Part shown: positions 1,887 through 5,358 of the stretch, piece by piece
Layout of the letters: every line of letters starts with the position of its first letter
How positions within the stretch are numbered: position 1 is the first letter of the stretch
Source of the DNA: a virus
Reading direction: 5' to 3' (one strand)
DNA: 25,866 bases
Virus record (IMG/VR): IMGVR_UViG_3300006738_000071
Span: 1 to 25,866 of that record
Translations under genes and position numbers: made by a program
The notes under the pieces: generated by a model
Told to the model about the DNA's origin: nothing
Databases searched by the model: none
Seen by the model: only the letters and a program-made list of their open reading frames with translations

Positions 1887-2326
1887 ACGTACTTCTGACT
1901 ATGATGTTCCTTCCGGTTGCGCTGTTGTTTGGTAAAATTAAGCGAGTCGGGCTCTGTAAGGACGCAGTAAACGATCAGGTAAACGAAGCGTTTCCCGTGT
2001 CGAAGTGGACCCCGTATTTAGATCTTGAACCACGAGGCTGGTTTAGGTGTTGGATGGAGAGGAATGGGATCGGTGGTATGGCGTGCCTCGGGTACGTGTT
2101 TATCCAACAAAGACACGAGTTAATTGTGTTCCATGAGTGCGTGCATGTGATGCAGCAGAGCGCGGTGAGCCCTGCACTGATAGGTCTTACCTACCTTCTG
2201 GACATAATCGTGTTCCTTCCGTGGCGTGGATGGTTCAAGGAGGGAGAGGCTAAGAGGGTGTCCACGGTAGAGGTCGTAGCGTACCGGGTGACAGGGCAAG
2301 ACGAGTGGTCTTCGGGACAAGATTAA
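1871..2326 (+). CDS. Membrane-anchored HExxH metallopeptidase-like protein
   Basis: This 151-residue protein begins with a hydrophobic segment (residues about 3-21, rich in Leu, Met and Phe) that should act as a signal anchor. Residues 88-92 are HECVH, matching the HExxH zinc and catalytic motif, followed by VMQQ. A second hydrophobic stretch (about 101-118) follows. A later Glu134 in VEVVAY could be the third zinc ligand, as in gluzincin-type peptidases where a Glu lies downstream of HExxH. The protein is short for a peptidase and no propeptide is visible. It overlaps the zinc-ribbon gene upstream, so the two are probably co-translated. Activity is inferred from the motif only, and the substrate is unknown. 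Position before the head genes could mean a virion or lysis-related role, but nothing in the sequence decides it. Confidence 0.55.
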   Translation: MFIWLNVLLTMMFLPVALLFGKIKRVGLCKDAVNDQVNEAFPVSKWTPYLDLEPRGWFRCWMERNGIGGMACLGYVFIQQRHELIVFHECVHVMQQSAVSPALIGLTYLLDIIVFLPWRGWFKEGEAKRVSTVEVVAYRVTGQDEWSSGQD

Positions 2327-2330
2327 ATAC

Positions 2331-2359
2331 TTGACACCGATCTTGGCCCGGACAAGAAT
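2331..2359 (+). promoter_or_regulatory. Candidate sigma70-type promoter before head genes
   Basis: A perfect TTGACA (2331-2336) is followed after a 17-base spacer by AAGAAT (2354-2359), which matches TATAAT at four of six positions. Transcription would start near 2366. It lies five bases after the preceding stop codon and is the best promoter-like sequence I found in the window. Phages may use their own late sigma factor, so use of this site is unproven. Confidence 0.5.
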
Positions 2360-2383
2360 GTGCAGAGAGGCCCGTAGTTTAGG

Positions 2384-2419
2384 GGCGCGAGAATCCGTGT
2401 GGTTTTTGTGCCTTTTTTT
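2384..2419 (+). terminator. Terminator-like hairpin with T7 tract
   Basis: GGCGCGAGAATC (2384-2395) can pair with GGTTTTTGTGCC (2401-2412) around a 5-base loop. This gives 12 pairs, of which four are G-U. Seven T residues (2413-2419) follow directly. This is the form of an intrinsic terminator, weakened by the G-U pairs. It lies just downstream of the candidate promoter and ends a few bases before the ribosome site of the protease gene, so it may act as an attenuator rather than only ending the upstream operon. A short alternative stem, 2370-2373 with 2383-2386, would compete for its base. Confidence 0.5.
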
Positions 2420-2432
2420 GTTTTGGTGATTT

Positions 2433-3191
2433 ATGTACGAGAATAATATCGACGTATTCAGCGCATGGACCCCGTTCGACGTTGTCGAAAAGGGTGAGTC
2501 CGAAAGCAGTCCTAGTGGTCGTATCTCCGGTGTTGTTTCAACTGAGACGGTAGACCAACAGGGCGAGCAGGTTGTACAGAAGGGCCTCGACTGGGACTAT
2601 TTCCTGAGCAAGGGTTGGTTCAACTGGGAGCACGCGGCTGGGCCTGAAAATGTTCTAGGGTACCCAGACAAGGTTGAACCCGTAGAAATCAACGGAACCC
2701 ACGCAACTCGCGTAGAGGGCCGTCTCTTGATGAACAAGGCTAAGGCCAAAGAAATTTACAATACGGCGGTAAGTCTACAGAAGTCGGAATCAAACCGACG
2801 GCTTGGATTTTCCATCGAGGGTCAGGTGTTAGAGCGCGAAGGGAAGACGATCAAAAAAGCTCGTATTCTCAATGTTGCGATAACTGCTCACCCGATTCAT
2901 CCAGACGCACGTTTGGAGATCCTAGCGCAATCACTCCTCGCCCGCGCCGCCTCTGTCGGCTATCAAACCCCAGCCGGTGAGGGCGGCTCTATAGCACCTT
3001 TGGTCGCACAATCTCTGGAAGGCTCAGTTTCAACTGCCACCTTCGGGGCTCGTGGTCTTGAAGCGTATTTGAAGAGCTTGAAAGAGGAAGACCTGATTGC
3101 GCTGCGTATTCTAAAGAGCTTTCCAACGCTCAATTTTGGAGACGCACATTCCATAGTAACAGACTTTTTACGAAAAAAGGGAGTCCTCTAA
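2433..3191 (+). CDS. Prohead serine protease (XkdF/HK97-protease-like)
   Basis: This 252-residue protein has the layout of a phage capsid-maturation protease. An N-terminal strand pattern contains VDQQGE (41-45), His67 lies in an NWEH motif, and Ser127 lies in LGFSIEG. His and Ser are the expected positions of the nucleophile and base in the herpesvirus/HK97-type protease fold; I could not assign a third catalytic residue. It would cleave the scaffold and the capsid N-arm inside the prohead. Residues about 175-202 (GYQTPA, then PLVAQSLE) closely resemble residues 29-62 of the capsid protein encoded downstream. A GGTGAT sequence (2425-2430) complementary to the 16S 3' end supports the ATG at 2433. 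The stop overlaps the next start (TAATG). Immediate linkage to the scaffold and capsid genes supports the call. Confidence 0.8.
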   Translation: MYENNIDVFSAWTPFDVVEKGESESSPSGRISGVVSTETVDQQGEQVVQKGLDWDYFLSKGWFNWEHAAGPENVLGYPDKVEPVEINGTHATRVEGRLLMNKAKAKEIYNTAVSLQKSESNRRLGFSIEGQVLEREGKTIKKARILNVAITAHPIHPDARLEILAQSLLARAASVGYQTPAGEGGSIAPLVAQSLEGSVSTATFGARGLEAYLKSLKEEDLIALRILKSFPTLNFGDAHSIVTDFLRKKGVL

Positions 3192-3913
3192 TGAAGAAGG
3201 CAACGCAACTCCGAGAGGAGTTAAACGGCGTGCTTGCGGACGGGGAAGTAGATCGCGTAGTAAAATCCGCGATTGACGCTGGAACAGTCGAGAATGACAT
3301 CGACTACAAGCCAGCGGTAGATCCAGAAGCACTCGACGTAGCACTCGAAGCCGTTAAGAAAGCGATGAATATCGCTAAAGAAGAAGTATCAACTGAGCAA
3401 GCACTAGCTCAAGCCGAAGAGATTGAGGAAGAAGTTTCCAAGTCTCTTAGCTTTGACGAAGTCGCTCTCGCAGAAGAAGAGGACTACGTTGATGTAACGG
3501 ACGTTCTCGACACAATCACAAAGGGCGCAGACAGCCTTCTGAGTGAGATTCGCCACGAGCACACAGTGTTGGCAAGCGCAATCACTGAGATGACTGCTGT
3601 ATACCGCGACATCGCTAAGGGCATCAACGCGCTTAGTGGTCGAGTCGGTGACCTAGAGAACGAAACCAAAGAGGTCCAAAAGGGTCTTGCCATTACTCCT
3701 GAACGTAAATCCGTTACAGGCACGTTAGAGGCAGTTCCCCACCCAGGTGACGCTCCAGTGCAGCTTGACCGCGCCGGACTCATCCAGAAGGGCCTGACAC
3801 TTCTTGAAACTTCGACTGAGCCAATGAAGCAAGCAGAACTCTCGAAAGCCATTTCGCTTTTGGAGTCTGGTGCTGACATTAACGAAGTCGTAAGCAATTA
3901 CCATCTTAACTAA
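3191..3913 (+). CDS. Probable capsid scaffolding protein
   Basis: This 240-residue protein is strongly acidic in its first half (runs of Glu and Asp around residues 75-105). Helical, coiled-coil-like sequence follows around 115-165. Residues near 166-190 look loose, and the C-terminal part (about 195-240) appears helical. It has no recognisable enzyme motif. Scaffolding proteins of tailed phages are typically acidic and alpha-helical, lie between protease and capsid genes, and often end in a helix that binds the capsid protein. All of that fits, but the identification rests on position and composition rather than a matched family. The start is set by TAATG overlap with the protease gene, implying coupled synthesis. 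Confidence 0.6.
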   Translation: MKKATQLREELNGVLADGEVDRVVKSAIDAGTVENDIDYKPAVDPEALDVALEAVKKAMNIAKEEVSTEQALAQAEEIEEEVSKSLSFDEVALAEEEDYVDVTDVLDTITKGADSLLSEIRHEHTVLASAITEMTAVYRDIAKGINALSGRVGDLENETKEVQKGLAITPERKSVTGTLEAVPHPGDAPVQLDRAGLIQKGLTLLETSTEPMKQAELSKAISLLESGADINEVVSNYHLN

Positions 3914-3927
3914 GGAGGGCTTTCATT

Positions 3928-5358
3928 ATGCTTTCAATGCCCCAAGCAAACGACCTAGTGTCGGTGAAGGACTTGCATGAGCTTAACAAAGCTCTCCGCA
4001 AGGCCACAGCGGCTGGCTACCAGACACCAGCCAGCCAAACACCAGACGGCAACACCACCTTTAGCCCACTGGTGCCTCAATCTATTGAGGCGACTCTCGC
4101 TTCAAAAACTTTCACTATGGACGAACTCGTTCTGTGGAAAATGCTGCCTAAACGCGCAGTTTCTCAAACCGTTCATGAGTACACCGTTGTAAATGAGCAT
4201 GGTGGAGATATGGACCCATTCTTCGTGGAAGGTGGTGGTGGATATGAATCCCTCAGCACTTACGAAAGAAAGAGTCTGCGAATCAAGTACCTCATGGAAA
4301 AGCGAGAGGTTACTGACGTGGCCTCTATGGTCGGAATCATCGGCAATAACGCAAACGCTATTGCTGAAGCCACCGAGCGTGGAACCATCTCTCTTTTGAG
4401 CAAGTTGGAGAAGCAGCTTTTTATCGCTGACTCCAGCATCAACCCACTTGCATTCGATGGTATCGATAAGCAGATGGCTGATGGCGCTCCTAACAATGTC
4501 AGCAACCTTGCTGGTGATGACCTTACTCCAATGAAGTTGCAGGAAATCCTGTCTGGCTCCTATGCCGAGCCAAACTTCGGTAAGCCATCCGTAGTTCTCG
4601 TTGAGCCTCGCGTACACGCGCAGCTTATTGAGCAGGCTACTGCTTATGGTCGCCACGACATGATGGGCACGGGACAGGGAACAATGACCTTCGGTCGTTC
4701 CGACCTCCGCATCTCGGTGCCTTACGGTACTGGTTCCGTACCTGTAGTTGGTTGCCCGTTCTTGTACCCAGAAGGTGCACCGAACGCAGCCGCTGTTGGT
4801 ACTGCACCGACAGCACCTTCTGCTTTCAACACCCCTACCGTTGCAACTCACGCTTCTTCCCTGTTCCTCTCCGGCGATGCCGGAACTTACTACTACCACG
4901 CGGTAGCAGTAGGACAGGGCGGTAAGTCAGCACCGATTGTGTCGGCTGCTATAACAGTAGCTGCTGGTGAGCGAGTATCCGTTGGTATTAACGATGACGC
5001 CCTTGCTACACCAGTAAGCGGCTCCGAGAACACTGCAAGTATCTTGTACTACAAGATTTATCGCAGCACGACCGGCGTCCACGCTGATGCAAAGTGGGCC
5101 TTCAACGTCAAGAAAGCGGATACCAGCAGTGACACCGCATTCAACGATGACAACCTTCACCGCCCTGGCATGTCCAAGGCGTATGCTCTTCAGATGACTC
5201 CAGATGTAATCGAGTGGGTAAAACTTCTCGACTTCATCCGTCGTCCTCTTGCAGAGGTGAAGACCACTAAACCATTCTTGCTCATGCTCTTTGGTGCGCT
5301 AAACATCAAAGTTCCGACCAAGAACTGGCTTATCCGTAACATCAAGACTAATCCTTGA
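3928..5358 (+). CDS. Major capsid protein with Ig-like insert
   Basis: This 476-residue protein has an N-arm (1-62) ending in GYQTPA and PLVPQSIE motifs, a HK97-type core including EREVTD-like and E-loop-like glycine-rich sequence (residues about 90-115), and a conserved C-terminal segment. Residues about 290-410 interrupt the core with an FN3/Ig-like stretch (TYYYHAVAV, SAPIV, ILYYKIYRS). The overall plan, including such an insert and the C-terminal MTPDV...PLAEV...GALN pattern, resembles the capsid proteins of SPO1/Twort-type myoviruses as I recall them. A strong AAGGAGGG (3912-3919) lies 8 bases before the ATG at 3928. The protease and scaffold lie just upstream. A GC-rich hairpin follows the gene. 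The N-arm is probably cleaved during maturation, but the cut site cannot be placed. Confidence 0.9.
   Translation: MLSMPQANDLVSVKDLHELNKALRKATAAGYQTPASQTPDGNTTFSPLVPQSIEATLASKTFTMDELVLWKMLPKRAVSQTVHEYTVVNEHGGDMDPFFVEGGGGYESLSTYERKSLRIKYLMEKREVTDVASMVGIIGNNANAIAEATERGTISLLSKLEKQLFIADSSINPLAFDGIDKQMADGAPNNVSNLAGDDLTPMKLQEILSGSYAEPNFGKPSVVLVEPRVHAQLIEQATAYGRHDMMGTGQGTMTFGRSDLRISVPYGTGSVPVVGCPFLYPEGAPNAAAVGTAPTAPSAFNTPTVATHASSLFLSGDAGTYYYHAVAVGQGGKSAPIVSAAITVAAGERVSVGINDDALATPVSGSENTASILYYKIYRSTTGVHADAKWAFNVKKADTSSDTAFNDDNLHRPGMSKAYALQMTPDVIEWVKLLDFIRRPLAEVKTTKPFLLMLFGALNIKVPTKNWLIRNIKTNP

Follow-up and report, generated by a model that had tools for sequence, protein, structure and literature searches.

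What use is a piece of the capsid protein to the protease that matures a phage head? The question is raised by the window, that is, the whole stretch of DNA analysed here, a virus record of 25,866 bases, in which a segment of the N-terminal arm of the major capsid protein (MCP) recurs in the C-terminal tail of the head maturation (prohead) protease. To our knowledge, it is open for most phages how the prohead protease is selected into the prohead and how it is restrained until the shell is complete.

The head module and the shared segment

From position 2433 onwards the genes of the window make up the head and tail module of a contractile-tail phage, with the protease, a gene in the scaffold position, the MCP, an adaptor, the tail sheath and the baseplate. 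The head module is SPO1/Herelleviridae-like. Its nearest named relatives are in the Herelleviridae (SPO1 and Lysinibacillus phage LysYB1) and among Thermus phages, and the same proteins were found on four other IMG/VR contigs. The protease (252 amino acids; positions 2433 to 3191, on the plus strand like all features described below) falls among the S78-like head maturation proteases of phrog_1028, with a profile match (E 1.3e-45) that runs across the catalytic domain; against Pfam Peptidase_S78 it scores only 14.3 bits and does not reach the cut-off of 21. The catalytic residues His67 and Ser127 are, like Gly130, invariant in 41 relatives, and the AlphaFold model has a herpes-protease-like fold, the best PDB matches found with Foldseek being herpesvirus proteases (E 2e-3 at best, probability up to 1.00). 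The layout of the protein is a catalytic domain at about residues 29 to 165, a disordered linker and C-terminal helices (residues 206 to 248), and the catalytic domain and the helical part are modelled confidently. A relationship of this C-terminal domain to the C-terminal helices of HK97 gp4 was considered and rejected, as the match was not significant. The protein encoded next, the scaffold (240 amino acids; 3191 to 3913), lies between protease and MCP like SPO1 gp3.3. It is followed by the MCP (476 amino acids; 3928 to 5358), which has the HK97 fold and belongs to the SPO1-like capsid proteins, as seen in its matches to phrog_752 (E 3.7e-54) and, in Foldseek, to the SPO1 capsid structure 9vel (E 4e-31, TM 0.73). 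Upstream of the protease, an ORF at positions 10 to 1668 has an LPD25 domain (Pfam score of 28 bits, with the cut-off at 27), which is a domain of large polyvalent proteins; the portal gene, expected beside the protease in SPO1-like phages, is absent there.

The arm copy occupies protease residues 171 to 204 (2943 to 3044; Arg followed by AASVGYQTPAGEGGSIAPLVAQSLEGSVSTATF), and its original is the N-arm of the MCP at residues 25 to 62 (4000 to 4113; Lys followed by ATAAGYQTPASQTPDGNTTFSPLVPQSIEATLASKTF). The motif GYQTPA stands at residue 176 of the protease (nucleotide 2958) and at residue 30 of the MCP (nucleotide 4015), and the shared stretch ends at residues 204 (nucleotide 3044) and 62 (nucleotide 4113), respectively. 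In BLASTP, protease residues 169 to 204 align with MCP residues 23 to 62 with 16/40 identities, 26/40 positives and one 4-residue gap (E 3e-6), which still corresponds to an E of about 1e-3 after allowing for the roughly 400 protein pairs in the window. The local alignment has a z of 11, and its score was reached by none of 1000 shuffles. The original prediction had placed the motif at protease residues 175 to 202 and capsid residues 29 to 62; the segment and its nucleotide span stand, while the residue numbers were off by one or two. It had also held that the DNA of the two copies is diverged, and in agreement with this the same codon is used at 8 of the 16 identical residues, where 5.7 are expected. 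AlphaFold monomer models give little confident structure for either copy: in the protease the copy lies in the disordered linker (pLDDT mostly <50), and in the MCP residues 24 to 45 are of low confidence. Both therefore look like flexible peptides that may become ordered on a partner. That the shared segment is real is settled by the relatives.

Distribution of the arm copy

The first eleven relatives comprise nine Herelleviridae or Herelleviridae-like phages and two Thermus phages, and every one of them has in its protease tail a form of its own MCP arm, most faintly recognisable in Thermus phage Lalka27b. In Brochothrix phage A9, for example, the protease has SMTTGYEHGGTDQTDGSALRRQSL and the capsid protein SMTTGYNHGGTDQFNGQALRRQSL; in Thermus phage Cumys the two read AGDPHALDPKSGLTGVPAIRRESLEG and AGDPHALDFKAGLSGVPAIRLESLEA. 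Phages of Gram-negative hosts, including ST4, Touem01, Dolphis and PHB04, have the copy as well. Searched against the PDB, a profile of twelve proteases picks up the capsid protein structures of SPO1 and 812 by way of the shared segment (E 2.5e-6 for SPO1). We then considered a larger set of loci, gathered with MCP alignments together with the phages already fetched, in which proteases and capsid proteins were located by profiles of the catalytic domain and the capsid body only, so that the arm itself played no part. The alignment of the tail with its own arm has z>5 in 117 of 126 non-redundant pairs, with a median z of 14.7. In two of the remaining loci (L093 and L096) the copy lies behind an intein, and matches are weak (z 2.9 to 4.8) in L075, L082, L098 and L099. 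The arm copy is thus a family feature, much wider than the window, of a large group of tailed phages. The original prediction had suspected such a wider feature of the protease/capsid pair, and the segment is indeed present in the related proteases and capsid proteins. It is not universal, since among the 126 loci no copy was found in the protease tail of Bacteroides phage DAC23 (L027), of the faecal phage contig MT835500 (L034) or of L211; the first two are of a Bacteroides type and the third is a relative of the window. In all three the MCP retains the arm motif, and they offer themselves as natural controls for what the copy does.

Within the phages the arm is restricted to two proteins. 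An arm profile built from MCPs alone, run against 4701 ORFs of all loci, matches only MCPs and proteases, the remaining matches looking like MCPs or proteases of loci in which one partner is missing. In each of 16 whole phage records (50 to 146 kb) a similar profile finds exactly two places, the MCP and the protease, and no third carrier. Against 124 scaffolds the arm profile gave no convincing match, the lowest E being 0.05 among the matches listed, and the C-termini of protease and scaffold are unrelated (hhalign probability 1.2). A tail shared with the scaffold, of the lambda C/Nu3 or UL26/UL26.5 type, was thus not found, with the exception of L099, L102 and L108, where protease and scaffold form one continuous ORF. 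In this single lineage the arm copy is shortened (z 2.9). The protease ORF of L102 (from about 3270) has an internal ATG at 4221, shortly behind the ribosome-site-like GGGGGTGAG, a nested layout as in lambda C/Nu3.

The protease ORFs of L093, L094 and L096 (near 2262 to 3930) have intein-like insertions of roughly 250 to 270 amino acids, which start with CFPGD, end with VVHN or IAHN before Cys and split the protease near an AITNC motif. They occupy two slightly different positions, and the arm copy behind them is intact.

Covariation and the cleavage boundary

Under a single ancient duplication followed by independent drift of the two copies, one would expect a tail to be no closer to the arm of its own phage than to that of another. 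Instead, the tails are closer to their own arm than to swapped ones, with a double-centred excess of 32.8 (permutation sd 1.4). This excess falls but persists in ever tighter clades (18.8, 12.5, 12.3, 6.1 and 2.1), each value well above its permutation sd, which ranges from 1.2 to 0.5. In a test of alignment columns, own pairs have 2435 matches, against 2210.7 +/- 14.7 in within-clade swaps; the alignment that defines the columns was made jointly and may favour matches, a bias that the swap control has as well. The covariation sets in at the maturation-site Lys (119/120 arms, 116/120 tails) and extends for about 35 residues, and the column test found none before the Lys or after the segment.

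The position of this Lys relative to the cut is indicated by relatives. The A511 record annotates a mature peptide of the capsid protein from S24, with the cut between ALK and SFTTGYG; the MCP of phage 812 (entry 9row) has 439 of 463 residues with the same start point as the mature A511 protein; and SPO1 chain 9vel_B comprises 445 of 468 residues, which by length would be A24 to the end if contiguous. The shared stretch, which begins with the maturation Lys, therefore corresponds to the first 35 or so residues of the mature MCP, the arm that the capsid keeps, and does not include the propeptide lost on maturation. HK97 MCP is likewise cut at a Lys-Ser maturation site, K103/S104 (PMC10275583).

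Protease and MCP both have a conserved Lys-[Ser/Ala], and in most relatives' proteases a Lys-[Ser/Ala/Gly] site precedes the arm copy. In the window, the probable MCP maturation site is Lys25/Ala26 (4000 to 4005), placed by its spacing to GY, by alignments and by homology to K23/S24 of A511; by sequence, an alternative is Lys21/Ala22 (LNK followed by AL; 3988 to 3993). At the corresponding position the window protease has Arg171, in contrast to Lys in 116 of 120 relatives, and the Lys further upstream, which in most relatives belongs to a VKS site, is replaced by Gln166; Arg171/Ala172 (2943 to 2948) would probably be the position of any self-cleavage. The scaffold of the window has 10 Lys-[Ser/Ala/Gly] sites against 3.7 expected, and in the scaffold ORFs of the 124 loci Lys-Ser occurs 836 times against 246 expected (3.4x), the residue two positions ahead of the Lys being hydrophobic. 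This suggests hydrophobic-x-Lys followed by a cut and Ser or Ala as the likely cleavage consensus of these proteases. Provided that the scaffold is cut at those sites, the arm copy is not simply a requirement for cutting, since the scaffolds are rich in Lys-Ser and have no arm.

Proposed docking by arm mimicry and its alternatives

On balance, we lean towards the view that the protease tail mimics the MCP arm so as to anchor the protease in the prohead, and that a self-cleavage site precedes the anchoring segment. The tail would imitate the mature N-terminal arm, and during prohead assembly the copy would stand in for a capsid arm, binding either the scaffold or the inside of the shell, and so draw the protease into the growing head; besides the scaffold and the MCP groove, the protease itself is a conceivable partner. 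The Lys-Ser/Ala site just before the copy is of the same kind as the MCP maturation site, and there the protease would cut itself off its anchor once the trimming of MCP and scaffold starts. This reading builds on the match in 117 of 126 loci, the phage-specific covariation, the start of the segment at the cleavage Lys, its restriction to two proteins and its absence from the scaffolds. Against it count the relatives that do without the copy and the Arg at the supposed cleavage position of the window protease. Observations on other phages are consistent with such a course of events. The protease of SPN3US without part of its C-terminal propeptide is active and is not packaged, which led to the proposal that this propeptide directs the enzyme into the prohead (PMC7411985). 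In HK97, the N-arm takes the scaffold's former place under the capsomer after cleavage, and in P22 and T7 the scaffold-binding regions are near the N-arm (PMC10275583). Taken together with these facts from HK97 and SPN3US, the arm copy is most economically read as docking by arm mimicry followed by self-cleavage at the Lys. The position of the copy in a disordered linker also counts for docking, and its shortening in the lineage with a continuous protease-scaffold ORF fits, as would be expected if the fusion replaces docking, albeit as a single case. The presence of prohead protease peptides in mature particles of Listeria phage CKA15 (PMC12282133) likewise counts in its favour. The original prediction had offered a substrate mimic, a processing or docking site and incorporation into the prohead as possible roles of the tail. 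These are supported to different degrees: a docking segment with an adjacent processing site is favoured over a plain substrate mimic, because the copy starts at the scissile Lys on the mature side and the scaffolds are without it.

The main rival to docking is that the protease recognises the MCP by the approximately 35 residues after the cut, its own tail then being a self-cleavage substrate or an autoinhibitor that is later displaced by MCP arms. We consider this rather unlikely, although the shared stretch begins exactly at the scissile Lys, the Lys-[Ser/Ala] is conserved in both proteins and such recognition would impose the observed covariation. The scaffolds have many sites of the same type without an arm segment, the residues on the non-prime side do not covary, and the Bacteroides-type relatives have the MCP arm and no copy in the protease. 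It is less probable still, and in our opinion improbable, that the cleaved tail stays in the mature head as a structural component and occupies arm sites left vacant by the MCP, for example near the portal vertex. The cleavage fragment would start like the mature MCP, the record of Yersinia phage fHe-Yen8-01 calls its protease particle-associated, and protease peptides occur in the Bc431v3 proteome and in the mature particles of CKA15; however, the amounts given are small.

A functionless likeness, renewed by repeated gene conversion or recombination between neighbouring genes, is highly improbable. Protease and MCP genes are close neighbours, and codon identity over all phages slightly exceeds expectation (1248 against 1187.7, z 2.5), a few phages having high values, for instance L198 (22/25). 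In most phages, however, the codons are no more alike than chance, which rules out recent copying of DNA between the genes and implies that the similarity has been kept at the protein level. Moreover, the match is maintained between clades that are only remotely related, it is bounded by the cleavage site and the copy persists behind inteins. Chance likeness of two short, low-complexity stretches has next to no probability: the segments are short, but the BLASTP E of 3e-6, the z>5 in 117 of 126 loci and the phage-specific covariation refute it.

Comparison with known systems places the proposed docking by arm mimicry beside several related solutions. In lambda C/Nu3, P2 gpO and herpesvirus UL26/UL26.5 a tail in common with another head protein carries the protease into the procapsid. 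There the shared sequence is that of the scaffold, whereas the window-type protease shares the arm of the MCP and its separate scaffold has no copy. SPN3US gp245 resembles the protease described here in its C-terminal tail, in the removal of this tail by self-cleavage and in the proposed targeting to the prohead (PMC7411985, PMC10052503), cleavage and targeting being predictions from sequence in our case; unlike it, gp245 cuts after A-X-E, and its tail does not resemble the MCP gp75 over residues 1 to 330 (z -0.6). HK97 has in common the fold of the MCP and the Lys-Ser maturation site, and in gp4 a Lys-Ser also follows the catalytic domain; gp4 has no copy of the gp5 arm (z about 0), and the HK97 scaffold, unlike that of the window, is part of the MCP, of which it forms the N-terminal domain. 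The capsid targeting sequence of T4 is a short, prohead-targeting peptide next to a site for the prohead protease (PMC7411985). It is N-terminal on internal proteins, whereas the segment described here is C-terminal to the catalytic domain and found only in protease and MCP, and is thus not of the T4 type; T4 gp21 has no copy of the gp23 arm. The head modules of SPO1 (gp3.2, gp3.3 and gp6.1) and other Herelleviridae agree with the window in genes, gene order, arm copy and MCP fold (9vel). The window is distant from SPO1, with an MCP about 25% identical, GYQTPA...PLVPQSIE in the arm, and Arg instead of Lys before the copy. No description of an arm shared between MCP and protease was found in the open-licence literature, and judged against this literature, the copying of the MCP arm into the protease seems unreported.

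We propose more tentatively that capsid-subunit mimicry could be a general route of protease loading, in which the enzyme would enter the shell as a surrogate MCP arm, competition with real arms would set its occupancy, and self-cleavage at a Lys site like the one that matures the MCP would couple the release of the enzyme to shell completion. The sequence names the element that is likely to load the protease, a 35-residue copy of the capsid arm with a cleavage site at its head, and the element occurs in phages for which genetics and structures are at hand (SPO1, 812 and A511), so that the question becomes testable. As a likely loading element, it would also lend itself to use as a tag that takes cargo into these capsids.

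In Lactobacillus phage LfeInf (L033; 2367 to 4825) the capsid gene precedes the protease gene instead of following it, and the protease keeps the arm copy. In Thermus phage Lalka27b (L016; 5665 to 8672) a CRISPR array, a TnpB-family gene and a DNA methyltransferase are annotated directly behind the capsid gene.
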